64,000 bases of DNA from NCBI RefSeq assembly GCF_964019385.1, contig NC_088643.1, positions 73,022,574 to 73,086,573 on the forward strand. The letters are read 5' to 3'. Shown in pieces: positions 2,673 to 61,030 of the stretch (position 1 is its first letter; the number at the start of each line of letters is the position of its first letter). This DNA is from Sycon ciliatum (taxonomy: Eukaryota; Porifera; Calcarea; Leucosolenida; Sycettidae). The translations under genes and the position numbers were made by a program. Under the pieces are notes generated by a model. It searched no databases. It had not been told where the DNA came from and saw only the letters and a list, made by a program, of their open reading frames with translations.

Positions 2673-5600
2673 TCTGCATTCAGCGGTGAACAAACGGCTT
2701 CACCTTCAGAAAAAAGTAGAGAATCTAGCGAGCCCAGCGCTAAGAAGCTATACCATGGGCCGGCATCATCTACTGCCACTTCAGCCCCTTTGAATCTACA
2801 AGACCAGCCAGCCCCCGCCACAGTTACTGCCCCTGTGCCCTCATTGTCATCGGCAGCTGCACAAGCTGCGCCAGCCGCCGCAGCAGCAGTTGCAGCAGCA
2901 CAAGCCGCACCAGTCCCCACTGCAGCGGCATCAACAGTGCCGACTGCTACGATACAAGGAGCCAGTAATGGCAATGGCGTCATGCAAGGAGCAGGCCAGA
3001 GTGTTCTGTTCCCCCCGATGGCGCCTTGGCAATTGGCAGCTTCAGCCGCTGGTGTTGGCTTTCCTGCGGCCTATGCAGCTGCTGGTGCTGCCTCAATTTC
3101 AAATGCCGCTGTGCCTGACAGCACTGCTAACAACCCAAGTGCAGCAGCTTCTGCTAACGACAATGAGAGCATGGTGGCGGCCATGGCGGCTGCAGCAGCT
3201 GCACCGCCTGCTTTCCCGTTCCTCAACAGTTACCTCCCACCGCCAATGCCGCCTGGTCAACCCAACATTGGTGGCGACACTAGCCAAGATGTCACTAATG
3301 CTCCAGCTTCAGGCTCGGTCACACTCAGCACGTTCGAATTAGCTGCTATGTTGTCTGCGGCCAGTCAAGCAACAAATACTCTGTCATTAAGTCCAGAGAA
3401 TGTTGCTGCAGTGCTGGCCGCATTACAACAAGGTCAGAACTCGGAAATGCCAGCTGAAGCTACTAATGGCACTAAGGCCCCTGCGCCAAGCGCTCCACCA
3501 GCCGAGCCTCCGCAGGCACCTCCTGCTGCGGCAGTGGCAGCTTATGCAGCGCTGCCTGCCCCAACAGCGACCACTGCACCTCCTGCTGCAGCTGCTGCTG
3601 CGGCGGCAACAGCGTCTTCACCAACAGCAGCCGCCGCCGCTGCAGCATCATCATCATGCAATGCGAAAACAACTGTGGCGACGTCAGTGGCGGGCGCGGC
3701 CGCGGCACAGGGGACTAAGCGTCCACCAGGCATGAGTGTGGCAACAAACCGAGTCCTGATGAAGGCAGAGAAAAGAGTTTTGAAGGGCAAAAAGGTGAGA
3801 ACAATCTCGTTAGCTTTCTGCTCCTTTGTGTTCTTTTTGCTGCTGCTGCTGCTGCTGTATTTAGGGTTGCAGGTTAAATTTGCAGGCAAGCCGCAGGAAC
3901 AAATTGTCAGTGTAGGGGAAGGATGGAATTTTACGGAGGGGCTTGCGTGTTGACTGTCTTATCCCATAGTACGGTAGGAAACCATGGATCCAGCCAATCA
4001 GCAGCCGTTATTTCCGGGGAATATAGCACGATATTCCCTGGAGTTCCGGGAATATACATTCGTACACATTCGTACCACCTTTGACCCCAGGCGTTCTACG
4101 TACGGTGGTGCACTGCCACTGCACCAGACCCTGCCGCAAAGGCAATTATTATTTTTATTATTATTATTCCACAATCACGATGACATAGTGCCAATAAACA
4201 TGTAATGTGGGCGATTTTAACCAGCATGGTGGGGAAAACTGAGAAAAAGAAGGAGAAAAAAGAACAATGAAAGCAAAACGAAAGGAGTACTAACTACCGT
4301 CGTCAATCCAACGTAGGCAATGCCTGGTACGGTGGCAGTACTCCAGCGCACGTAGAACACATGGGATCCACGCACGCACCCCCCCCCCCCCCACACACAC
4401 ACCACATGTCTTTGCACAATACAGAACAAGAATACTTACGTGTGCTTGCAATGCAATAGTACTGTCAATACATGAAGTTATTATTCAGTTTATTGTCCTA
4501 ACACCAAAGTCGATGCACGAAAGGCCCACGATGGGAAAGAAGAATGACTGGCATCATCATTACAATGTGGCAAGAATACTAGGAAGCTGCAGAGCATCTA
4601 ACGTTAGAACGAATAAACAATGTATTTCGAAATGGCATAGATCACCAGACCGGCCGTTTATCTAACGTTAGAACGAATAAACAATGTATTTCGAAATGGC
4701 ATAGATCACCAGACCGGCAGTTTCCTTTGTAACTGACAACTACTTTGTAAGGTTAATGCACTTCAAAATGCACCTAAAACCTAAAAGGTGAGTTTGAATT
4801 CTCAGCTGCATGTGTAAAGCATTACAGCACCCATTAATCGCACTTACTCCTATCTCTAGTCTAAACTAGTCACCGTAGTTTGGTTCAACAGCAGCTCCAA
4901 AGCTCCACAGATTCAGCTACATGTAACGTCTGTTCCACGAGCTGACGAGCGCACAATTCAACATACCACTGCAAAACACAAGATGCATTTATCTACTTGA
5001 ACTCAATAAACTGTAACTAAATGTATAAGGAAGAAAATCGTCTGTAAGATGTATGGATCAAAGGAGAAAGCTCCTTCTGATCTTGCCCGACGTTTCCTTC
5101 ATATGACAGCTGAGTGATGTCTTCCTCCTCCTCTTACCTTACTTCAAGATACTTGTCTAGGACGTCCAGACCACAGTACATGTACCGGTACAACCATCCA
5201 TGCCATACGATTAGCACAGTTCATACTCCAGATTGTGGGAAAAGTTTGACCTGACCTGGGATAAATGCAGTATCCCATTCGTAGTCGGGGTATACCGTAT
5301 CTCTCATATTTCCCTCCGTACCTGCGGTACTCGGGAAAATATTCGGCGATATACCCCTCGGACTCATGGGATAATCCATACTTAACCATTGCTACCAGAT
5401 TTGTGATAGACCTACTTCGAGTACAAGTAGTACAGGTATTTCGTGGGAGAATGTACACACGTTCACTTGCTCGGCCATCGATGACTGTCTTTTATGTGTA
5501 CCGCATGTGTAATGAATCAAGGTGCAGCATTGATAATGATGTGAACGCCCACAAACCTGGTCTTGTCTTTTCTCTCGGATAAGGAGCTGCCCACGGCTAT

Positions 5601-8600
5601 AATTGTAATTATTATCGATCATTTACATGAAACGAAAAAATTCGTTTGTGGGTGGGTTGCGAAGAGTTTCGTTTAGAAAAAATGTTAATAGTTGAAACAT
5701 CAATCCATTCTAGCAGCCAAGTCATTATATTTTCCGTTCAGGGAGGTGGAGGAAGGTGATAACTAAACCTTTCACTCCTTGAAATATTTTTAAAATTACC
5801 GACAATGCCGGATGGCCCCTAACCTAGTTTTGTTTCTCTGTGTTTATGTTCAGGCGGATGCGGACGTCATTGCCAAACTGAACCAGTTGACCCGGTCGAA
5901 GAAGCCTAAAAGATCCAGTGGTGCCAACGCAGCACCATCAGTAGCTCCACCCTGTGGCTGCACAGGTAAAAAAGCACAGATACATGACGTCATACTGTTC
6001 TTTCTCTTCGTCCCTGTCGCAGGTGGGGTGAAGTAATTAGTTCTCGTTCATGTCCTACGACATAATGCTACTCGAAGTGGTGTATTTTTTTTGTGAAAGC
6101 AGGAATGCGCGTCACAAAGTAGAGCATGCACAAACCACATACACATGTCAGTTGTGGCTACATATCTTGTGTTTGTGCTTCGCATGTACGGACACCATTC
6201 AGTTCTTAGAACTTCCTACTCTGACAACGATTATGTTGTTCTGCTTTGCTGTTCTTCCCGTGTACCATGTGTGCAGCGTCTGTTGATGTAGATGGCCATT
6301 ACTACACTCATTTCGGCGCTGCAGCTGATGCTCAGCAGCTTCTTGAAGTCGTGCAGAAATGGTAGGTAGTTAGTTTGCTCAGAGGCACTTCTTAGTTCTG
6401 AAAGACGGGCCCAATATTGCAAGTTTGCAGATCAGTGTATTTGTGAGCATATGGTTTGTATCGGAGGAGCTCTTGGATGCAAAGGAGCACTGCTTTTATG
6501 CTAAAGATACTTATTAGCGACGGTCGGTGCTGTGCGGACTCTGCAGAGTGTTCTAAGCGAATGTTTTCAAGATTGATTGCTATCATTCCATGGTGCGTTC
6601 TGCGCCAGTGTACACACACCTGTTATTGTGTCCAGTACTCCTCATAAGCTTCTTTTGTTTGCTGCTGTAGGTACAACGTTCCTGCTTCCGGCATACGCAT
6701 GGTTGAAGTAAGTGAGCCCCCAGCCAGCAGAAACCTGAACATGTGTAATTTTTTCAAAAATTATTTTTTCCCTCGAAATTGTTTCTACACTATTAATCAT
6801 TCAAGTTATCAAGTTTGGTGACAATCTGATAAGCGAAAGCATGAAAAATAGAGTTTGAAGTCACACAGGTCAAGATTCGGTACAGTTGGTGCAGCATCCA
6901 TGCCTAGTGACTCCATGCAAGTTGATCCTACAGTTTCTGATTGTGATGTGGAACAGGTACATGTAAGTAAATAGAATGCAAGTCAGGCTTGCCCTCTTGG
7001 TGCTGCAGGCATGAGTAGTTCAGAAGTGTGACGATATTCCGTATACATCACTGCCTTCTTTACAACACCAGAGTGCAAAACGATGATTGGTGGCTGGCCT
7101 TCCAAATTGTGTTCAGGGACCTCTGCGCCGGCAGTTTGAGCATTGTCCCAAAGCTTGCCATACTGATAGATGTACTGACCAATACCACTGACATCCACTC
7201 CCTTGCACACTTTCACTCAGACCATGATTTCAGCATAATTGTATTTCATTGATATGAGCGAATACTCGCGTTTTGTAGCACGTGAAGATGTTGCCCCAAA
7301 GCGTTCAGCCGGTTTGAGTTTTTAGGAATCCCCTTTCTCACCACAGGCAGCAGCCAGCTTGGCGTCGTCTGGCAAGGTAGAGTACTGATAATACTACGCT
7401 CAGATTTGCGCCGTGAGAAGCCCTCCATCAGTGTCTGCAACATCATTGTTGTCGATGTAGAAATACGGATCGCTCAGCGGGTCGACATTCAGCTTCTCCT
7501 CGCAGTCGCTATTACTCCAGCACTGACTATCGTCGCCACCAGTATCCAGTGTCGATTTTATGAGGGCTCTTCGTTGCTATGCATATGAGACTCGCCACTG
7601 CTGGACAAACTCAGCGAGATCGCCACCAAAGAAATAATTCCGATCGCGAACTAACTTTCAGCGCCGCTTCGTACAGGGAGTCTCACGCAGACAACTAACT
7701 CCTAAGTCTTTGTCGCGACACCTGTCGCCATCGCTGTGTCTAAACTCAACCTCCGTGTGACGAGCTCTCACCTAGCGCTAAAATCAATTGGCCAGAGAAA
7801 TTTGAAGACACTTGAAACTCCTTTGACAACAAAGACACCCACTCGATCGAAAAAGAATCTTCAAAAGCCAGCTCACTGCGCGTCCCAAACTTTGACGTCA
7901 CATTTTGATGATTGATATCAAGTACACAAGTGCTGGTTTTCGCTGGCCGGGGCTCATAATTATTAGTTTTAGGCATGGTCCTCCTGGTGCCTACATGCAT
8001 GCCACTCTACACATACCTTTCCTTATATTCTCCGAGCTTTCCTGGTCTTGGAATGCGTACGAAAACTGACTGGGTGAAGGTTTCAATCAGCATTAGCCGT
8101 GTGGCGTGTGCTATCCTTTCTATTAGTTGTGATCTGCACCACTCTTGTTGGTACATACTTCATTACCTGCATGTCTGTGGCGAAAAGCCCCGCTTTTGTA
8201 TAGCCGAGCTTAATTGGATGATTCTTGATGACAAGGAAGTGACAGCATCACAGTACCATCACAGCTACACTTGCAGGCGGATACATGTATCGCACTGTCA
8301 TCCAGGTACTGATTTTGACATCGTCTAATGCCGAGTATGTGTACGTGCACTCTCTGTGATCTTCTTCAGCTCAAGTTCACAGGGCGGGGTACGAGGTCGG
8401 ACGGATGCCCGAAGCACAACTGGGTGAGTTTGTGGAGACATTGGTACTGCTACTGTTGACTAGTAGAAGCAGGAATAAAGTGAGAAGAGCAAGAGAAGGA
8501 GCGGGATATGCAGTAGTTTACGTACCCTACCTGCAATATTGTCATTCCGCTTGAATACCACGTTTCGCCAGAATATATAAGTTTTCCACGAATGTTCATA

Positions 8601-11600
8601 GCACAATTTCACACATCCATATGAGCAGTGAAATCTTCTCCCGGCACCCAGAGTCACCAGGATGTACAAGCATCTTGGTATGGTCAGCATCCCTGTACTT
8701 GCCACCTTGTCATTGCTAAGCGCATGAGCAATCTCGGAGTTGTGACTGTTCCATCTTGCCCACCGTTGTGCTGCTTTGTGTAGCCAAGCTTTACCACATA
8801 GCCTTAGGTACAGAGGCTGCACTCACAGCTGCCTCTTTGTAACACCTTTCATGCTATTCTAGCTGTAGGTGAACAGTTCAGCCAGCCTTGTTTGTGTGTG
8901 TGTGTGTGTGTGTGTATGTGTGTGTGTGTGTGCACGCGCGTGTGTGTTTTTTGCGCGCATGTGCGTACCAGCCATTACTCACAATATGATGTGTGTATGT
9001 ATATTGTGTGTATGTGTCCGTGTCTGTGTGTATGCGTATGCGTATACAACGGGTTTTGCAGACACTGCGCCGAGAAGTGCCAACTGAAACTCACATGGTC
9101 TTGTATCGGCAACACAAGCAGCATAAATGCCAGAAGAAGTTCACTGTGATTGCCATTGTTCACTGGGACTTTCTACCAACAATATATTGCACAAACTTGT
9201 ACCGCATGCTGACAGCAACACTGCCTGATCATGGACTGCCATCGAAGAGAAAGTGTTCTGCTAACGAGAGGTAAGTACTGGACACTGGTTTTCTCTGACC
9301 GAGTCCACTTGCTTCTGTGTGTGGGTGTGTGCACATGCGTGTGTGTGCATGTGTGCACGCGCATGCTATTTGGTTACTGTATTCTGCCAGCCTGCAGAAT
9401 GGCTGCCTTCGTTCTAGATAATTTAGGGATTGGACTAGTTTCGACTCCACAATCCAGTGTTTAACTATTACCTTTTATGGTGAGGGTGTTGGTACTTCAA
9501 GGTAAACGGCTCTCAGTTTGCAGAGCTCAGGTGCCAGGACTGGTTGCTGAAGTAACTCCATTTTCACTTCAGGATACCAGTGCCTCTATTGTCTGCTTCT
9601 GTAAGAGCAGCATGTTGACTCTATACTGGTTGGAGCAGCAAGTGTAGGGTGTGCGTAGCTGTAAATGAACTTTCTTGGCCGTTTTATGCCCATGTACTCT
9701 GTGAGGTGTAGACCAGGTGTGCATTGGGAGGTCGATTCACATGGCTTTGTGAGTGATGTGAATCGGACAGCTATCTGGCGGAAGTCTTGATCCGCTTCAT
9801 TTCGATCTTTTCCGTTATCATTGCTATAAGAGATAGTCTGTGGGTGTGCACTGTACCCCCGGTGCATTTGCAGATCGGCGTGCTTCTCCGCTTTTGACGG
9901 GCGTACATGTTTCATTGTGTTGGGTTCCTGTGTGTGGCCTGTGTTCCACTGGCTGCTGCAGCACAATGACCGCACTGCAGCACAATGACCAGTGACTGCA
10001 CTGCAGCATAGTGACCAGTGACTGCACTGCAGCACAATGACCGCACTGCAGCACAATGACCAGTGACCGCACTGCAAGTCGTTTCATGTGACTTTCTCCA
10101 CCTGTCCTTAGGAAAACGTGCAATTGCATGGGCGATCCGGATGATGGGGCGTGTGCATATGCCTTCGGCTGCCTGTGGAGCGTCTATTATCATGGCTGCA
10201 AGTTTGCTCGAAGCAAGATCGTGCGCAAATACAAACTCAACTCACCTGAGAAGGACAAGGTTATTCCGGTAGGTGTTGGGCAGCCATCGTTGGACAGCTG
10301 GGCGTTTTCTTTGTGGCGGGACAACATTGCTGTGAAGTTGAGCAGTGAAGTTGAGCAGTGAACTAAGAGAGATTCAGCTGAAACATGTCTGATTGTACAT
10401 GTAGATAGGAGCGTGAAGTGCAGAGCAGCGGGAGTATCTGTTTCTCAGCTGTGCTTGATCTCAAATTGGAATGGCTAGAAATTCTGAGAAGAGAAATCAC
10501 AGGGACAGCTGAACACCTACCAATCCAGCACGTGTGCTTCATTCTAAAAACATGTGTTGGCTGCAGTTTTTGAAATGTTGACAGCGTAGCTTACCAGGCG
10601 AAGACCACCTTCTACACGTTCTTACAATCCCGACGTTATTGTAAATGCGGCATAGTCAGTCAGAGAGTGTGCTCGCATGACACGTAAACTAATGCTTGCA
10701 GGGAACGGAAAGACGTATACCCGCTTAATAAAACAAACCCGTGCTCACCCAGAATGGTTTTGAAAAAATCGGGCAGTACGAAAAAGGTCTCTAGTGCGCC
10801 TCCTGTTCTTTTTGATTCTGTTCTATTTCTCTGTGGGCTTCTTTAGCTGTAGCCTTGTGTCTGGACATATTGAAGCAGGCCCCAGGCAAAGATAATAATA
10901 GTGTGGCAAGCGACGAAACAGTGAGAAGAGTCATAGGAAAACTGTTTTCCCGTTTCGACACTCACCCTTTTTGACCTTGCAGGGAAGACGACTTGGGCTA
11001 CATCGTGCCACACCTTTCCGTAAAGGGAAGAAAGTGTGATATACATGTATATGGTGAGGCAAGGGTGAAAGAGATATGAAGACATGCTATGCAATGGTGA
11101 GGTATTTCTTGATATTGAGTTTCTGATTCTGATGCGCTTGGTTTAGGACGAGACTCGACTGGAGGAAGACTTGGATCGACTGGCCACTGTCCTGGCACCA
11201 GAATTGGAAGCCCTTGCGCCAGAAGCTTATCGAAATCAGGTGGGTCAGAGATTAGTGTTAGTGAACTTGTGGACCTATACCTTGGTAGTGGTGGTGGTGG
11301 TGTGTGTGCGTGTGTGTGTGTGGGGGGGGGGGGGGGTGTACATGTTATAGCAGCAGTGGTCTTCTTGCCATCACCACTTTGCACTACCGTTGCTGGAGGA
11401 AGAGCTTACAACATCGCTTCCGGACAGCTGTTGCCCATGCGGTTCGTTCTGAAGTGTCCATTGGTGACCTGTAGTCGGGTGGGAGGTATCTCAAGGCTCT
11501 GTTCTGGGTCGCGTTCTTTTCACAATCTACATATGACATGTAACAGACGTCCCATGAACTCATACTCTATGCCGAAGACATAGGACACTTCAACACGATC

Positions 11601-13912
11601 TAAAACCGACTATCAGAGAGCCTCGCAGCGTTACAATCACACCGCACGGAACTGGACCTCCTACTGAACCCCGACAAAATGCGCAACTATTAGCCGCCCA
11701 TCGGAAGACGAACCGAGTTCCACCAATGTTCGCTGTCCTGTGTGGCCTTCCCAGTGTGTCCCCTTCCGAGTGCGTTCCCTTCCCAGTGTGTTCGCTACCT
11801 CGGAGTGCGAGTCGGCCAGCACCCCGCCTTCGAGGAGCAGGTCCTGAAAGCTCTTGCTGATGTCAACTGCAAGCGGGCCGCATCTCGCAGGATACGACAT
11901 CACCTTACTGCTTGCTTTGGGCGCAGCAGTGTTCCTTCTACCTCAGCAGCGTTATAACATGCAAGCCACCAGGGAACACACTAGCAACTGCTATGTGTAC
12001 ACGTCATATTAATAATCTTGTACGACAAACTAATTCAATGATTCAAGCGTTGCCTCAGGATAACATTCGCCTAGCCACCCTGCCAGCAAACATCCCTGGT
12101 TTTCTGTTAATCATCCTGTGCTTATTCATGTGCTTGCAGATTGCCGATGAAGTCGAGGCACCGGACTGCAGAATTGGACAGCAGGGCGACAGGAAGCGAC
12201 CGTTCGCCAGCGTATGTGCAGGATTCGACTTTCCCTGCCATGGACATGCAGAGCCGTCAGATCTTGACAACGGTGCCACACTGGTTAGTAGTAGTGTCAA
12301 TAGATAGCAACGCCACGTCCCCCGGTCAAACAGCATTGCGTGCGGTGCAGCAGCACAGCGCATACTACACTATTTTGCTGAGTACTCAGTACTCAGTACT
12401 TGACATTTCTACCACCTACTTGGTCCGTTTCATCGCAATTGTCGCTTATCTATCGCAACTAAGAACAGGAGTTATTTTATCGCTCTGTAAAATTTCCGAT
12501 ACGCATAGTGAAGAAGCATGATACAGGATTCCTGTCCGCCACAAGAAAAATAATTCAGCGATGGAATCTGATGAAGCAAGTCGAAGAAAGGAAGCAAAGG
12601 TTACACAAATGTACAAAAGAAAACAGCGACGGAGCGAGTTCTTGCACTCACGCTTTAGTTTATCTGACTCTGGCTCTGTATCACTCGACCTAATGTCACT
12701 TGAGCTGACATTCGCTGGTGTGTATACATGTAGCTGCTGGCGTAGAGTATCTCTTGCTTTCTCCGCTTGGCGTATGGCAGTCGTGGGCAGCGTGACCTGT
12801 GTGTCACCACTGTGTGTTTCAACAATGTTTTTGAATCAGGCACACATCCCTCTCCAGACAGCTGTCATACGCTCTGCTGGATACACTGACCACGGCTCTT
12901 GTACTGCCGCTGCCAGGTCGGACAATGTCTTCTTTGCCACCATCTCCCCACAGTTTGCAGGCTTGCAAAGAATGCCAGGTCGTTGCACTTGCAGTTCAAA
13001 CGTGGCGACTGAGCTGGCTGGCCTCCGTGACTGTCACGCTCTCCAGGTCAGGATGTCGATTTCCCCTGCTACAGTTTCGAGCTGCGCTTGGCTTTTCGCT
13101 GCAGTGAATGTGTGCATTCACTGCAGCGAAAAGTTCCCCACTTTCCCATCACAATCGTACGAATCGCGATGCCATTGGCGCTAGTCTCGATCGTTTTTTT
13201 CTTTCTGGTCTCCTTTGATCTTGCCATCACAACCTCCCAAACGAATGTGAGTTAGATATCGAGATCGGACCGGGTTTTACCTGTCAAAAGGCGTGTGGGA
13301 GATAAGCGACAATTGCGATGAAACGGACCAAGTACACAATCGTCGCCAAAACAATCCGGCCAATGCCGATACAGCCGTATGGTACGCGGACACGGTGGTG
13401 CCACACGGTAGCATGCACATGCTTTTACCAGTGTCTGCTGTAGGTGTAGCAGCACCGCATGCACTGACTATGCAGCTACGTATAGCTACGTATAACTTTA
13501 GTTATGATAGGTATAGGTGCTGTGGTAGTGCATGTGTTACACTAGCATGTACAGCGAAAGGGGAAAGGGGATTATTTTGGTGATGACTGTAGTACAGTTA
13601 TGTAGTAGGTGGTCCAGCACCAGCAGCAGCAGCAGCAGCACCAGCCCTTGCTCTTCATTGTGTATCAGCAATCAGTAGGCAGTTGTGTTTGAGCGGTTTC
13701 CGCACGCTGAACTGGTGGTGTGAAGTTCCATCCCTGGCAGTATACACTACCTGAAACATGGCATGGAGAATGGATAGGGGTTGGGATTGTAGATCAATGG
13801 TATTTACGACCTCTGGTTTTGCTCATTGTCTTCCAGATGAATAACAGCCTTCGGAACACAGGGAATAAAACTTGGCAAGGCCTATGTGTATGACGTTGCC
13901 TGTCCCTGCCCC

Positions 13913-13951
<39 letters not shown>

Positions 13952-13960
13952 CGTGCGTGT

Positions 13961-14005
<45 letters not shown>

Positions 14006-16241
14006 ATATGTTTGCAGGTATGCACTCTGCTTGGTAAAGAGGTACCCAACTCTACTGCTGATCCAAGCGAGGAACAGCTGCATATCTTGACTGCCTACAG
14101 TTTGGCTGACAGCACTGAAGAAGGTGGAGGTGTCGGCTTAGCCCTGGGCAACGGTTCCATCTTGGTCAAATACTGCGTGAAGGATGTGTATGCGAACACA
14201 GCTCTTGTGAGGCCGAATCGGAAAGCTCCGGCTCGTATTTCTCTTGTCTTCCAGCATGGCCGTCAACTGAACCGCCTCAAGCATGGTACTGCTGAAATTG
14301 CAGACAAGATGAAGAAGATACAGGAGGAGCGAGAAGAAATGATGGCAGAGGCTGTCAAGCAAGCAGAGATCGATAAGGTGGAGAAGGCCGAGGAAGACAA
14401 GAAAAGCGCAGCAGTAGCAGCAGCAGCGGCAGCAGCAGCCGCTGCCGCCACTGCTGCGGCCCCTCAGCCAAATGTATTGTCAGTGTTGGAACAGTCTGGT
14501 AGCACCGGTCAAAAACTTACCGTAGAAAATGCTGCTAGTCAATTTGCCCAATGGCAGCAGCAGCAACAGCAACAACAACAGCAGCAAGGAGCTGCCGGTG
14601 GCGCTACACTAGATGGAGTCCTGACAGAGCTTGTTCTTGATAGTGGTGGCGGTGGTGGAGCACAAGCAGAGGCGACCAACGCAACTGGCCTGGGTTTGCC
14701 GCCAGAGTCTGTGTCCAGTTTCCTGATGATGAATGATCTGTTTGGTAGCTTCACTAATCAACAGGCTAGTGCAGCTGAAGGAGCTGCAAACGAGGCTCCG
14801 GGGGCTGCTGTGTTGGAAGGCGGCGGACAAGAAGGACAGGATGCTAACTGGAGTGCTCCATCTCCCGAAATGCCCAGCCTGGTGGATTTGCTGAACAAGC
14901 CTGGCGACGACAGCCTGCCCATCATACCGCCGCCCAGCTATGCACTGCCTCCAGCTCCAGCTGTCCCTGCCCAAGACAGCAGCGCGGCGGTGTCTGCCAG
15001 CACCAATCCCGCTACAGCTAACGTTCCATTGGGCGCTACGTCTACTGCTGCGCCGGTGGTTGCGGCGGAAGGTGGCTGGGCTGCTAGCCTGAATGCATTA
15101 GCAGCACCACCAGCTGCAGCAGCAGCAGCAGCAGCAACAGCAGCAGGTGGTGACCAGGAACACACCGGTGGTGGTGCTGGTACCAGCCAGGAATCCGTCT
15201 CCACACCGCAAGGTGGGGGCGCTGATGTGGCCTCTGCTGGCGACAATGAAGAATCTCCAGCACCAGCTGCCGTGGGTGGTGACGATCCGGCTCGTCTGAG
15301 CGAACTGTCGCTTGGCAGAGCCTCCGAGCCGAGTCACACTCCCCTTGCCGGTGTGTCTGGCCCCAACTCAGTCGCTGCTCAGGATGACCCTGTACAACAG
15401 GCCACCGCGCTGATGCAAGATGGCAGTGAGCAGCCAGCTTTGCAAGTTGCCAGTTCACCAGCTGAAGACCAGCAGCAATTACAGTGGCAAATGCAGCAAC
15501 AGCAGCAGCAGCAACAGCAGTTTCCTGCACAATCCCCACCATTGATGGCACACAATATGCTCCAACAGCTGTATCCTGGGTTGGTACAACGACAGCAGCA
15601 ACAGCAACATCAGCAGCAGCAGCAACAACAACAGCCGCAGCAACAACTACAACAACAGCACCACCAGCAACTTCAGCAGCAACTCCAACAACAACAGCAC
15701 CAGCAACATCAGCAATCAAAAGAGCAGGTCCAAAAAGAGGATGAGAGTCATCAGGAGTCTGGTCAAGCCCAAAGCCAAGCAGCCGCTGCTCAGATTCAGC
15801 TGCCAACACAGCAGTATTTACAACAGCTGCAACTTCAGCAGTTCCAACAACAAATGCAGCAGCGACAGCAGCAGCTGCAACAAGTCCAGCAGCAGCAGAC
15901 GCAAGCCCAGCTACAATCACAACAGCCACATCAACTTCATACACAACACCAGAGGCCACCGCAGCAGCAGCAACATGCAGTGCGACAGCCGATCAGTTCT
16001 CCTTCTCTGGCTGCTCCTAATCAGGCTGAAGAGAAAAAGGAAAGAAGTCCCACAACAGAAGAAAAGCCTGTTGTATATGCTGGCAGTCAGCAGATGGCAC
16101 AAGTACAGCAGCAGCAGCAGCAGCAGCAGCAACAGCCAGATCAAAAGAGTGTACTGCAAATGCAACAGGCCCAGGTTAAACAAATGAAACGAAACGAGCA
16201 GCAGCAGCAGCAGCAACAACAGCAAACACAACAGCACCAGC

Positions 16242-16276
<35 letters not shown>

Positions 16277-17752
16277 CGACATATGCAGCAACAGCAGCAA
16301 CTGCGCCAGCACCAACAAAGGCACCAGCTGCAGCAGGAACAGGCGCTGCAGCAACAGCAGAAGGAACAGGCGCTGCAGCAACAGCAGCAGCAACAGGCCA
16401 GTAAGCAACAGACTAAACCGCGACGAGGGGCGAAACCAGTGAAGGAAAACCCAGTCGCTGCCATTGTTGGCCCGCCAAGCCATGGATCAGAGGAGCAGCA
16501 GGACCGTAGTGCCACGAATTCTCCGCAGAATATGGCAGCAGCACAGTACTTGCAGCAACGGCAGCAACAGGCAATGCAGCAAAGACAACAGCCAACTGCA
16601 CAGCCAGTGCAGCAGCCGCAACATCACCATCAGCAGCAACAGAAGCAGAAAGCACAGCAAGAAGCGCATGCAGCACATCAAGCTGCACAGCAGCAAGCAA
16701 AGCTGCAGCAAGAACAGCAACTGAAGTATGAAATGCAAGCTGCACAGCATGAACAGCTGCGCCTCGTGCAAGAGCAGAGAGCACAAGCGCAACAAGCTGC
16801 ACAACAGCAGCAAGCTGCACAGCAGCAGCAAGCTGCACAGCAGCAGCAAGCTGCACAGCAGCAGCAAGCTGCACAGCAGCAGCAACAGCAGCAGCAGCAA
16901 GCTGCACAGCAGCAGCAAGCCGCACAGCAGCAGCAAGCTGCACAGCAGCAACAACAGCAGCAACAACAGCAGCAGCACCGAGAAAACCTCAAATCACCTC
17001 CCAAAGCTGTGCAACGTGCCAGCAGAACACCCAGCCAACCACGCATCTCTCCAGCATCGCAATCCCCTGCAACACACCAGATTGCGCCAGCCCAGACAGT
17101 CCAGATGGTTACCTCGGCTCATCCGCAGCAGCATATGCTGGTAGCGCAGCAGCAGCAGCAACAGCAACGGTACATTCCGGCACAGCAGCAGTGGCTAACA
17201 TCCACGCACCCTGGTATTCGGCCTCTGTGGCCGTCGCAATACTCCATGGTGCGGCCCGGTCACGCGCTGACGCCAGTTAGCAGCGTCGAATCGGGAGCAC
17301 AGGCAGCGGCGCTCAGTAATCGACAGCCTGTTGCTCACCTCGCGAGTGGCGACCGGGCACTGCAACCAGCTGCTGCTGCTGCATTGGCTGCGGCTCAGCA
17401 GGGTCAGGCAACTCCCACAGCCATACAGTCACCGTATGGTTTCAGCACACAGGCACAGGGGGCACGCGGTGCCGCCCTGCCCATGGGAGTGCCCGCGCCA
17501 CGTCCCGCTGGCATTCCGGTGGACGCAGCCCAGCAGGCGTATGCACGCATGCCCGTCCAAGTGGGCCGCGCTCTTCCGGGTCAGATGCAGCCGCGCATCC
17601 TGCCGCAAGGCTGGCAGCAGGCCATGCAAGGCATGGTGCGCACACCCAATGCTGGACAGCAGCTGGCTGGACAGTTTGCCGCTGCTCCGCCGGGCGTTGC
17701 ACAGCCCAACATTGTTAGTATGATGGCGCCGCAGCAAGATCGCTGGAACTAA
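2673..17752 (+). CDS. TET: TET-family methylcytosine dioxygenase, multi-exon, 5' end not found
   Basis: TET proteins are nuclear Fe(II)/2-oxoglutarate dioxygenases that oxidise 5-methylcytosine. Ten exons join in one frame: 2673-3794, 5854-5965, 6277-6361, 6671-6707, 8370-8423, 9062-9270, 10112-10268, 11147-11239, 12140-12283, 14018-17752 (about 1,915 residues). Order: Ala-rich disordered region (1-374); Cys-rich domain (about 405-650) with CGC, YYTHFG, GCPKHNW, KRKC, TCNC and [18 protein letters not shown]; double-stranded beta-helix (about 650-760) with RISLVF; then a Gln-rich tail of about 1,150 residues in the last exon. Zinc Cys/His and both 2-oxoglutarate arginines are kept, but the iron site reads HAE at 12245-12253 and Tyr at 14189-14191 instead of HxD and His. 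The usual insert in the catalytic domain is missing. No CXXC zinc finger is visible. The first exon opens in phase 0 behind an acceptor, so the start Met lies upstream. Family assignment is secure; activity is not. Confidence 0.93.
4596..4723. repeat. 64-bp tandem duplication, two copies
   Basis: Two adjacent nearly identical 64-bp units, each starting ATCTAACGTTAGAACG, in the first recognised TET intron. One difference is seen at the end (CGGCCGTTT against CGGCAGTTT), so the duplication is recent or an assembly artefact. Confidence 0.9.
5268..5374. repeat. Inverted repeat of about 30-bp arms
   Basis: Imperfect arms around GTATCCCATTC...GGGGTATACCG and CGGCGATATACCCC...ATGGGAT face each other across about 45 bp in a TET intron. 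Probably a small foldback element; no target-site duplication identified. Confidence 0.6.
8891..9050. repeat. GT-rich microsatellite before the TET exon at 9062
   Basis: A clean (TG)n core at about 8891-8930 continues as degenerate TG/TATG repeats to within about 12 bp of the acceptor at 9060-9061. Confidence 0.9.
9956..10075. repeat. Imperfect tandem repeat of a 17-24 bp unit
   Basis: Repeats of CACTGCAGCACAATGACC, with or without an added AGTGA, lie 35-155 bp upstream of the TET exon at 10112. They occupy the usual branch-point and tract zone of that intron. Confidence 0.8.
11464..11957 (+). mobile_element. Decayed non-LTR reverse transcriptase fragment in a TET intron
   Basis: Translated pieces in shifting frames match the fingers/palm part of LINE reverse transcriptases: [16 protein letters not shown], then LYAEDI in place of the catalytic YADD, then a helix with LLLNPDK, then [16 protein letters not shown]. 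Stops and frameshifts are frequent, so it is dead. It lies between the TET exons ending at 11239 and starting at 12140, on the same strand as the gene. Confidence 0.7.
13914..14000. repeat. (TG)n microsatellite before the last TET exon
   Basis: Interrupted TG repeat ending 17 bp before the acceptor of the 3.7-kb terminal TET exon at 14018. It replaces a normal polypyrimidine tract. Confidence 0.95.
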
Positions 17753-50400: not shown

Positions 50401-51669
50401 ACGGCATGAGCAACGTACATGCTGGGTGCTGTCCAGTCCCAGACCTGCGAGCCCAGGACTGTGTAGGTCACTAACTTGCGTGGAGCATTTTTTCTTACCG
50501 GCGCTGCAGATACGCTGTCCTACCCATCGTGCTTACTCTCGTTCTTTTCCGTTCGCGGAAACCTTTGTTTAGGAAGCCCCATAGTGTGAAGATGGAGTGA
50601 GTAGAATTGAAGTTATGATCCGAACAACATGAGAACGAAATGCAGAATCCTGACATGTTCCTGGTGCTTTTATAGACTAAAAAACCAAGCTGAGATAAAA
50701 GAAGACCTCTTACCCCCGTGAGATTGCAGAAACCACTTAGAGGAAGCGGAGGTGGAGGACCTTCAAGACCCAATGACAGTTCAATGAAAGCATATATTCG
50801 CTTCCATGTAATTGGGCTTATTGCCCGTTTGGTATTGCGAATTCAAATAAAAAGAACAACAACAACAAAGCACCTAAAATGACAAGCAAGAAATGCTGAT
50901 AGAAGGTGTTGGTCGACCGATTCACAATCAGTGAGTCCCTATTTCCACGTTTGCCGTTTCCCATTCACAGAGGATTCCTATCGCAAGCAAGTGGTCATTG
51001 ACGGTGAAACATGTCTACTGGTAAGTATGTACTGTTGATCTACATTTAGTATTAGCTCGTGCATCATCAAGTCGAGGCATGCACTGTTGGTCTACACTCA
51101 GTACAGGTCCCCCCTCCCCCCCCCCCGTTAAAATTCGGTTAGTACAAAAGTATGTGTCACGTAGACCCACGCAACATCTCGGGCTATGTCAGCCACTGCT
51201 GGGCCTGCACCGAGCCTGTATGTGTGCGTATGTCACAGAGGTGTCGGAAATCAACTGGCAGCACGAAAGGGTGAAAGTGGCAAGCTACGTCCCCGGCAGC
51301 CTTGGAATATCAGTCTCACTGTACTGGTGTTATGATGAGAAAGGTATAAATGATTACCCAGTACATTGTACTTCTACAGTCCTTCACAGGGCACAGGGGC
51401 ACATCCATGAAAATGATATCACTTGTGTTATGTATAGTCCTTCACACAGGGGCACATACATGAATAATGACATCATTGTGTTCTGTACTCCAGAACTAAC
51501 GGCGTTTTATGTTCCTGTGAATCGTGTTTTGTATTGTTTGCGACATGTCCAGGACATTCTCGATACGGCAGGGCAGGAGGAGTACAGGTAAGACATACGC
51601 ACGCACACGCACACATGCGGCGCGCACACACACACATGCACACACATGCACACACACACTCACACACAT

Positions 51670-58264: not shown

Positions 58265-59306
58265 AGCCCATAGGCATAGACGGGTTGCCAAAGTCGCCTC
58301 CGGGGATCCGTTCCCGAGGTGGCTCTGGAGAACACGGATGTTTGAATCGATTTTTCGGGGCAGAGCGACAGGTTGTTTCTCCTTTTTACCTTTAGACGTG
58401 TGTTTCCTTCCCTTTGGTACAGTTATTTGTAGCAACCGGGGATGGGTCAGAATGATCACTGTTGTGCTGTGGGTTGCTCGACAAGGAGAGTGAAAGGAAA
58501 GAAGATCAAATTTCATTTTCTCCCTCGTAAGCCGACAGTGCGAGCCATTTGGCTCACAAGAATCAATAGAAAAGATCTGGTGCCATCCAAGGACACTTGC
58601 TTGTGCTACAAGCATTTCCACAACGGGGAGAAATCCAAGGACCAGCCATATCCGGTATATTTCTCTCACAAGTCGTATCCTTTGTGTAGGAAAGCTCCAG
58701 AAAAGAGACCGTTGAGAAAATGTCCGAAGTCTAAGCCCAAAAAAGCCAATGCCAATGCCAAGAAACCAAGCAGCAGGTCGAAGTTAGTGCAGTTGATGGC
58801 CAGGAACACCTTGTGTTTTTTATCCTTCGTCTGGCTTGCCCAACAAAATGCACTGACTACAGCATCATCATCATCATCCGCTTCAGACAATGATATTGTC
58901 ACAGCATGAACAAAACCCTCCTTTGCAAACTTCTGCCCTCTCTTGAACGTTCTACACCACTACCAAAAATTCTCTTTATAGTTCCAATCGTCAAACCTTT
59001 GAAAGGTTTCAGAGAGTCAAACGGCAGATCCATGCGACTATCCACACTATCGTTGCTATTACTACAAGTCCTACTCTATTCCTACACTACTACTAGAAGT
59101 CGGCAGCAACAAACAACTACCAATACACTAAAAGGAAGGAAACGCAAGTCATGGCACAAGCAAAATAAAACACACAAACACATCAATCCATATGGCCATG
59201 TGTCTCTTTGCCCCGAAAAATCGATTCCGAGCTCCGTGGTCTCCAGGGCCATCTCGGGTACGGATCTCCGGAGGCGACTTTGGCAACCTGTCTATGGGCC
59301 TAGGTC
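58265..59306. mobile_element. Inverted repeats flanking the THAP ORF
   Basis: GGTTGCCAAAGTCGCCTCCG near 58284-58303 and its inverse CGGAGGCGACTTTGGCAACC near 59269-59288 sit inside longer arms of about 45 bp. AAGCCCATGCCCGCGCATAA motifs lie outside both arms as direct repeats (about 58210 and 59420). Together they outline a decayed DNA element of at least 1 kb carrying the THAP ORF. Confidence 0.55.
58442..58909 (+). CDS. THAP-type zinc-finger ORF, probably of transposon origin
   Basis: Single-exon ORF of 155 residues starting at ATG 58442. THAP domains are C2CH zinc fingers that bind DNA, found in host regulators and in transposases such as P-element and Kolobok types. Residues 7-74 fit: CCAVGC, 42 residues, then CYKHF (C2CH), with Trp37 and a YPVYF stretch near where THAP domains carry an AVPTIF motif. 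After that come a lysine-rich stretch (about 84-115) and a serine-rich end; no catalytic domain is seen. Inverted repeats of about 45 bp lie on both sides (58265-58312 and 59262-59306), suggesting the ORF sits inside a DNA element. A second open stretch (58906-59397) overlaps the stop in another frame but resembles nothing I know. Alternatively this is the first exon of a larger host gene. Confidence 0.6.
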   Translation: MGQNDHCCAVGCSTRRVKGKKIKFHFLPRKPTVRAIWLTRINRKDLVPSKDTCLCYKHFHNGEKSKDQPYPVYFSHKSYPLCRKAPEKRPLRKCPKSKPKKANANAKKPSSRSKLVQLMARNTLCFLSFVWLAQQNALTTASSSSSASDNDIVTA

Positions 59307-59944
59307 ATACTGGGAGTCCATAAATTATGGACTATTGGCCATATTGCACAGTGGTTTTCAGCAATGTACTTCACACTTCCTTGATACTTTTCAATAGCAC
59401 AACTTGGTGTCGGCGTATAAGCCCATGCCCGCGCATAAGCCCATGTTCTCGTATAACTATAAGCCCACCGAAATGTTCTTGTGAAACAGATAAGCCCATG
59501 GGCTTATCCGCGGGATTCTACGGTACCTGGAGACGTCCGCTCCAGCACAACGCTGGAGACCTTCAAAGCTGCAGCAGTACCGTACGCAATTGCTCATCGA
59601 CTGTGCCCGATGTATTCCTTGCTAAATACATGCAACAGTAGCAAATGCCATGTTTGACAATGGCGGATCCATACTATTGATCTCCAGCTAGCTGACTATC
59701 ATTTCCAGTGCATACACACTTTTTTCTCTCTCTCTTTTTTTCTTCCCTCTTAATTCGCTACCTTGTCATTGGGAAGAAATTCCCGTTTGGATTTTGCGAA
59801 GTAACACAAAGTTTAAAAAATATAATACAAAAAAGGACAGTCATAGCAGCGCAGAAGATGCAGCGAGTGAATCAGCCTTCATCAAGTGTCCCGGGGCGGA
59901 CGAGATAGTGACGGTTAGTTCGCAAAACTCCGCGTACATGTACG

Positions 59945-61030
59945 ATGTGCTGTCCTCCTTTGCCCTATCTCAACCACAAGCAGCATAATTATGCAGCCTT
60001 CACGCGTGGCCTCGCCAGTAGGTGGACGTTCCTCTGCCGGGTTCAGAAGGAGGCCCCGGAAGCCATGGCACCCGTCGAGCATATCATCTACACCAAACTT
60101 CTACCAAACTTGACGGGACAGCCTATTGACGCCGCTCTCAGACATTTCTTCTCTCTCCCCTGCGGTGAAAGCGGGCTCGGTGTGCTTGACCCGACCGCAC
60201 TGGGAACGCAGTACTGTTCCTCTCGATCCGTCACCTCGTCGCTCGTTGAGAACATCGTCGCTCAGCGCCCACAGCTTGGTGATGCACTGGCCACCGTCAG
60301 CCACATGAAGACCAGGGCACGCAATGAAGCCCGCCGCCGTATTCAGGAGGCTGCTGCGTCGTTCAACAGCGCAGCTCCTGAAAGCCTGCAGCGTACTATA
60401 CTATCCACCTGGTCCGCGAATCTGGAGCATCCAGCTGGCTAACCTGCCGTCCACTGAAGGCTCATGAGTTCTCACTATCCAAGAGTGAGTTCAGGGATGG
60501 TCTAGCTCTGCGGTATGGATGGCAGCCCAGCCGCCTACCATCAGCGTGTGTGTGTGTGTGGTGAGCCATTCGATGTGACCCACGCTCTTTCCTGCAGCAC
60601 TGGCCGGCTACCCGACAATCCGTCACAGCGAGCTTCGTGACGTGACAGCGAATCTGCTCAAGAGAGTTGCCACGAATGTGGCAGTCGAGCCTCGACTCCA
60701 GCCGCTAACTGGAGAAAGGCTGCAGTGTCGAACCGCAATCACTGACGACCAGGCCCGGTTGGATGTGGCGGCTAGTGGTGTGTGGGGTGGAAGATTCGAG
60801 CGTGTGTTTCTCGATGTACGGGTTTTCAACCCTTTCGCACAATCGAATCGGACCTCCTCACTCATCAGCACGTACCAGCGCCATGAGAAGGAAAAACGTC
60901 GACACCATACCTGCCAAGTACTCAGAGTGCTTTTTCTGGATCGCCATGCAGTCCATCCTCAAGCGTGCAAAAAACATATCTCTGCCACTAATCGAGACTT
61001 ACACTGATTTTTGCGCTTTTGGGCCCAAAT
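59945..61030 (+). mobile_element. LINE ORF2 C-terminal half, frameshifted
   Basis: Readable in several frames: AFTRGLASRWTFLCRV, LPNLTGQPIDAALRHFFSLP, GESGLGVLDP; then HEFSLSKSEFRDGLALRYGW, CVCVCGEPFDVTHALSC, TGERLQCRTAITDDQARLDV and FLDVRVFNPFAQSN. The order matches the C-terminal region of a non-LTR element family common in invertebrates, ending in a Cys-rich stretch and a nuclease-like DVRV segment. Several frameshifts make it inactive. Confidence 0.75.

Follow-up and report, generated by a model that had tools for sequence, protein, structure and literature searches.

The window analysed here is a 64,000-nucleotide stretch of the genome of the calcareous sponge Sycon ciliatum (C1:73022574-73086573, in a genome of 538 Mb and 313 contigs), and it contains a TET gene with an altered catalytic site. 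TET proteins are the enzymes with which DNA demethylation begins. We hold, with modest confidence, that this old TET paralogue has turned into a pseudoenzyme, the product of which would bind chromatin without oxidising 5-methylcytosine (5mC). Judged by its motifs, the protein is predicted not to be an active TET dioxygenase. The non-catalytic reading fits because changes affect the base pocket and two of the three iron ligands, a CXXC finger, the zinc ligands and four residues of the 2-oxoglutarate (2OG) site are present, and a canonical TET on contig C4 could do the chemistry.

The residues of the window protein were scored by re-alignment to TET2 entries in the PDB. Numbers and roles of TET2 residues, including the list of 12 zinc-ligand positions, are presumed as background unless a paper is named. 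At the iron triad H1382/D1384/H1881 the window protein has H/E/Y, that is, HxE...Y for HxD...H, with one of three ligands kept. The H-x-E motif, equivalent to H1382-x-D1384, is encoded on the forward strand by CAT GCA GAG at 12245..12253, where D1384 has become Glu (GAG, 12251-12253); the position of the distal iron ligand H1881 is occupied by a Tyr codon (TAT, 14189..14191, forward strand). Both replacements had been proposed in an earlier, sequence-only reading of the window, and the codons read directly, as well as the new alignment to TET2, agree with it. The interval 12140-14262 given in that reading does hold the site, but it extends over two exons (12140-12283 and 14018-17752) and a 1,734-base intron, and position 14262 falls in mid-codon.

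None of the six base-pocket residues tested is kept: positions 1372, 1374, 1386, 1387, 1902 and 1904 are occupied by C, G, S, D, Q and G for T, C, H, N, Y and H of TET2. The codons concerned are those of Ser for H1386 (12257-12259), Asp for N1387 (12260-12262), Gln for Y1902 (14252-14254) and Gly for H1904 (14258-14260). The last two lie in the motif RISLVFQHG (14234..14260, forward strand), in which the equivalents of R1896 and S1898 are kept and those of Y1902 and H1904 are replaced. The same four replacements of base-contacting residues had been listed earlier as free of gaps. The change of H1904 to Gly needs the ungapped alignment VFQHGRQLN / VFYQHKSMN; a one-residue gap could keep His1904, but Tyr1902 is lost regardless.

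The zinc ligands are in a different state, all 12 on the list being identical in TET2, the window gene and the C4 paralogue. The 2OG-site residues R1261, H1416, R1896 and S1898 are likewise kept (4/4), which upholds the counterparts claimed earlier for the zinc ligands, R1261 and R1896 and adds H1416 and S1898. According to a docking paper, the 2OG site of TET2 includes R1896, H1416 and S1898 (PMC9749932). Honeybee and human TETs are described as having an Rx5a 2-oxo-acid signature, namely Arg, five residues and an aromatic (PMC4150289). In the window protein the Arg of this signature is kept, but the aromatic, which falls at position 1902, is now Gln, and this leaves the 2OG signature incomplete.

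The attribution of the gene to the TET/JBP family is based on several features. The TET core scored 85.1 bits against Pfam Tet_JBP (curated cut-off 34.9; E 4.1e-24), the zinc ligands of TET are found in its Cys-rich region and there is a CXXC finger. Among the seven PDB sequences listed for the core, human TET2 is the best match by far, with three entries at E 4e-81 to 8e-81, and the remaining four matches have E 0.026 or worse. Membership of the JmjC family was not found, Pfam giving Tet_JBP alone at E up to 1. By sequence, then, the window gene is a TET/JBP family member by descent. The CXXC finger, with its eight cysteines, occupies C1:73018637-73018759, some 3.9 kb ahead of the window, and is very probably part of the window TET gene. 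CXXC is reported for TET1, TET3 and the honeybee protein AmTET (PMC4150289, PMC10415333); since TET2 and the annelid TETs lack it, family membership does not depend on it. As with animal TETs (human TET2, 4nm6/9hxv; AmTET), the window protein has Tet_JBP, the zinc ligands and R1261/H1416/R1896/S1898, together with an upstream CXXC as in TET1, TET3 and AmTET. It differs from them in its HxE...Y triad, changed base pocket, missing Rx5a aromatic and very short segment between the halves of the beta-helix.

A second TET gene (TETb) was found on contig C4 (C4:1628866-1638778; model built here), as a genome search suggested in the sequence-only reading for a TET with HxD...H had anticipated. It consists of nine core exons whose intron phases agree with those of the window gene, four of them equal in length (85, 37, 209 and 93 bases), and has its own CXXC upstream (C4:1621784-1621903). 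The protein scored 115.2 bits against Tet_JBP and has the canonical HxD...H triad; N1387, Y1902 and H1904 are kept and H1386 is Leu. In all, it retains the 12 zinc ligands, the four 2OG-site residues, three iron ligands and five base-pocket residues. Its Cys-C loop is changed, YLMSCKFGLSSSNSVRKF (CKFGLSSSNS) at C4:1632512-1632683, with a two-residue insertion compared with TET2. The two paralogues share the upstream CXXC, a shortened inter-half segment and a long low-complexity tail; the C4 paralogue is unlike the window gene in keeping HxD...H, N1387, Y1902 and H1904 and in its changed Cys-C loop. Identity is 153/372 between the window gene and the paralogue, 145/353 between the window gene and TET2 and 170/353 between the paralogue and TET2; the duplication is therefore old.

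Genome searches of this kind see single exons. Two protein searches, with the window protein and the paralogue protein as queries (13/13 and 10/10 candidates scored), revealed no TET exons beyond the window gene and C4. A genome search with the Pfam family (5/5 candidates scored) listed the C4 gene alone and missed the window's own exons, so a very divergent third TET could escape that search. Scans of viral contigs and genome contigs, both poor places for an animal gene, gave no confirmed relatives. Two TET genes in one invertebrate are also described for the annelid D. gyrociliatus (PMC11292947); unlike the window gene, the annelid TETs examined in that source all have a conserved HxD and lack CXXC.

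The four retained 2OG-site residues would be unneeded by a plain dead scaffold, and they can be read in favour of an active oxygenase of changed chemistry or substrate. Such an enzyme would hold Fe(II) on His, Glu and Tyr (or on His and Glu alone) and bind 2OG as usual, and its rebuilt pocket would take some base or substrate different from 5mC. HxE is described as a hallmark of PE-type fungal TET/JBP proteins, a class linked to DNA transposons (PMC12730594), PHF2 with Tyr as its distal ligand is reported to be active (PMC11790891), and the algal TET homologue CMD1 is an example of a TET with a changed co-substrate, though its HxD...H is intact (PMC7854593). This explanation must, however, accommodate two iron ligands changed together, the difference from TET2 at 6/6 tested base-pocket residues, the Rx5a aromatic among the losses, and an inter-half beta-helix segment of only seven residues; moreover, Epe1 of fission yeast, with the same triad, is reported to have no in vitro activity (PMC7192584). 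We consider it distinctly unlikely. The sequence-only reading had suggested a non-catalytic or altered-specificity TET: the first half of that suggestion fits the motifs and the canonical C4 TET, and altered activity is the rival just described. Its remark that Tyr would be unusual as a third ligand holds, with two precedents that it did not name, Epe1 and PHF2 (PMC7192584, PMC11790891).

Epe1 is the nearest parallel to a protein of this motif. Its motif is naturally HXE...Y, set in a 2OG-oxygenase fold at chromatin, and its Tyr is reported to be needed for its anti-silencing function (PMC7192584). Epe1 differs from the window protein in belonging to the JmjC family and in its connection with histone, and the resemblance is taken as convergent. 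PHF2 is similar in the replacement of the distal His ligand by Tyr and dissimilar as a JmjC protein with reported demethylase activity (PMC11790891). The PE-type fungal TET/JBP dioxygenases share HxE and differ by their kept distal His, predicted activity and transposon origin (PMC12730594). In honeybee TET, replacement of HxD by YxA is reported to have abolished activity (PMC4150289). A natural HxE...Y TET was not found among the papers listed by searches of the open-access literature, a scope that makes this weak evidence, and neither was a TET in which HxE...Y is combined with CXXC and retained 2OG-site residues and which has a canonical paralogue next to it in the genome.

The changes are not confined to the catalytic pocket, as the sequence-only reading had supposed. 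The segment joining the beta-helix halves is ADSTEEG, seven residues in the window protein versus 25 in the C4 paralogue, and at this place the window protein leaves 79 residues of the crystallised TET2 chain without a counterpart. Unique changes were counted against TET2 in 348 shared columns, a test that presumes TET2 to be the outgroup, which is unproven; there were 63 in the window gene and 39 in the paralogue (exact p 0.022). The beta-helix accounts for 30 versus 12 of these (exact p 0.008) and everything before it for 33 versus 27 (p 0.52), with the N-terminal Cys-rich part at 21 versus 8 (p 0.024), Cys-C at 10 versus 10 and linker 1323-1366 at 2 versus 9. The excess in the N-terminal Cys-rich part and the missing Rx5a aromatic, together with the short segment, make the earlier statement of a loss limited to the pocket too strong.

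These counts bear on the possibility of a decaying gene, with catalysis gone and the remaining protein subject to drift. The overall excess of unique changes, that of the N-terminal Cys-rich part and the lower Pfam score (85 versus 115 bits for the paralogue) would be expected of such a gene. They are set against 1,541 codons without frameshift or stop, canonical splice sites, 12/12 zinc ligands and the presence of the eight CXXC cysteines, and against Cys-C and the linker, which have not changed faster than in the paralogue. Decay is a possibility of some weight, though an unlikely one. The earlier suggestion that the gene has been kept for another role would draw on the same long intact gene.

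The distribution of losses between the two paralogues also allows a division of labour, in which the window protein would make the DNA contact and the C4 protein would carry out catalysis, in one complex or alternating at shared sites. In loop 1290-1306, seven TET2 residues are kept by the window gene alone and one by the paralogue alone; for 13 pocket residues the corresponding numbers are 0 and 7 (loop-versus-pocket Fisher p 0.0014). The losses thus look complementary, and CXXC fingers are present on both paralogues. The p value of 0.0014 is, however, optimistic because the loop was picked after the alignment had been seen, and a region-wide test for paralogues losing different modules was not significant (p 0.10). 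The residue roles, moreover, are presumed ones, and TET2 is monomeric in its crystals, which counts against the proposal. It appears highly improbable.

An artefact was considered as well: a mistake in sequencing or assembly, or an alternative exon that escaped notice, might make a normal TET look altered. The iron-ligand codons are each one base from those of the paralogue (GAT and CAT), as an error would require. A sequence error is nevertheless improbable because the other pocket changes, many and independent, and the shortened segment are not isolated base errors. An alternative exon with the canonical residues, proposed in the sequence-only reading as a refutation, was not found in the window: tblastn with TET2 gave no further TET exon, and outside the gene model only weak matches of E 0.02 or worse were obtained, for example in a GT repeat. 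Elsewhere, the genome searches gave TET exons on C4 alone. The in-frame stretch of the intron between exons 8 and 9 is a piece of a repeated transposon, as described below. The chance of an artefact is practically negligible.

Several points weigh against the pseudoenzyme reading favoured here. Loss of the Rx5a aromatic weakens the claim of continued 2OG binding, and the N-terminal Cys-rich excess (21 versus 8) is unfavourable because a kept DNA-binding scaffold alone would not predict such change. The single-base distance of both iron codons from the paralogue's belongs here too, as does the reported activity of PHF2 after its His-to-Tyr change (PMC11790891). Glu is possible as a carboxylate ligand, fungal HxE...H TET/JBP proteins being predicted to be active (PMC12730594). 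A review suggests that Epe1 may demethylate after all and that its Tyr might serve as a switch operated by phosphorylation (PMC4687429). Recruitment to enhancers is reported to persist in a Tet2 HxD mutant, and the mutant so recruited to be functionally inert (PMC5142813); binding alone therefore need not give function.

According to the pseudoenzyme reading, the CXXC finger and the Cys-rich surface would bring the window protein to CpG-rich chromatin. The beta-helix would fold round its zinc ions; 2OG may still be bound there, and perhaps a metal ion too, if weakly, but a flipped 5-methylcytosine would be neither held nor oxidised. The part left to the protein would be that of a scaffold or partner-binding factor, and it may compete with the canonical C4 paralogue for shared sites. 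A pseudoenzyme with a chromatin role seems most likely, with predicted chromatin binding, no predicted 5mC oxidation and a putative role as scaffold or competitor. This proposal is illustrated by the non-enzymatic function of Epe1 and by the non-catalytic roles of mammalian Tet1: catalytically dead Tet1 is reported to retain key developmental functions, through PRC2 and Sin3a (PMC8989540).

A bolder version can be sketched, in which TET function has been split between two old paralogues. A chromatin-reading and perhaps 2OG-responsive pseudo-TET with an Epe1-like HxE...Y would steer, sense metabolism for or restrain a catalytic TET with a diverged Cys-C loop; taken whole, this is a long shot. 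Earlier study of non-catalytic TET roles is described as using engineered dead mutants in mice (e.g. PMC8989540). If the pseudoenzyme reading is true, a naturally dead TET beside an active one would represent an evolved separation of function and would reveal what in TET remains important once oxidation is gone. Convergence with Epe1 on HxE...Y across oxygenase families would, in that case, suggest that 2OG enzymes can become chromatin regulators by a repeatable route.

The TET gene of the window, all features of which are on the forward strand, is assembled from nine spliced exons between 5854 and 17752; all introns are GT-AG, the frame is open to the stop codon and the 1,541 codons ahead of it include no stops and no frameshifts. 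Exon 1 of the core (5854..5965), with GT-AG boundary, in frame and aligned to TET2, encodes ..PPCGCT with the C1133/C1135 equivalents, and exon 2 (6277..6361) encodes GHYYTHFGA, also aligned to TET2. Exon 3 (6671..6707) has 37 bases and is equal in length to its counterpart in the C4 paralogue. Exon 4 (8370..8423) contains SDGCP with the C1193 equivalent, exon 5 (9062..9270) the equivalents of H1219, C1221 and R1261, and exon 6 (10112..10268) Cys-C, with a loop, presumed to face DNA, that is close to that of TET2. Exon 7 (11147..11239) encodes APEAYRNQ, aligned to TET2, and exon 8 (12140..12283) the altered first iron motif HAE (HRD in TET2). The terminal exon (14018..17752) comprises the second half of the beta-helix, followed by an extended Gln/Ala-rich tail that ends at the stop; it sits within a 1,303-codon open frame at 13841-17752. 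A probable upstream coding exon, whose start and assignment to the TET gene are tentative, is located at 2673..3794; it is an Ala/Pro-rich open frame with a 3′ end of phase 0, followed by gtgaga, and joins 5854 in phase. Upstream of the CXXC exon, kilobases-long trinucleotide arrays (Ser or Val reading) occupy C1:73002600-73008689 and C1:73012611-73017437.

The intron between exons 8 and 9 harbours a 918-base DNA transposon (12417..13334, no strand assigned), which carries a 19-base hairpin between perfect 35-base inverted ends. It has many copies in the genome, with 137 match rows including short terminal-repeat rows (40/390 first-look candidates scored); long copies elsewhere are 82-91% identical, and there is a tandem run near C3:45782364-45785756. 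An open, in-phase AG..GT stretch at 12840-13046 (69 codons), the single such candidate noticed in this intron, was considered as a TET exon and rejected, because it is part of this repeated element. The open frame holding it gave no Pfam match at E 0.01.

The methylation setting was considered from the side of the genome. Open frames with DNMT1-like motifs, including LLCGGPPCQGFSGMNRFN, occur around C4:11.641-11.648 Mb, and a CXXC lies close by, at 11.637 Mb; the DNMT1-like name is presumptive and follows from the motifs. The CpG observed/expected ratio of the window is 0.70 and the TpG ratio is 1.37. A DNMT1-like gene and CpG depletion suggest a genome with some 5mC. Four further DNA_methylase matches were seen, at C1:31236551-31236943 (in a 1,193-codon open frame) and on C93, C218 and C269; the strongest, on C269 and C93, could be microbial.

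Other features of the window are minor. The stretches at 11540-11960 and 59912-61007 resemble a decayed retrotransposon by eye, two open frames tested in the latter giving no Pfam match at E 0.01. An open frame at about 51556-51591 ends in a motif that we take to be a G-domain motif of Ras-like small GTPases; its Pfam match is only below cut-off and to a family other than these. The open frame at 58433-58909 encodes a THAP domain (Pfam E 2.4e-10) and may be a gene or a remnant derived from a transposase.

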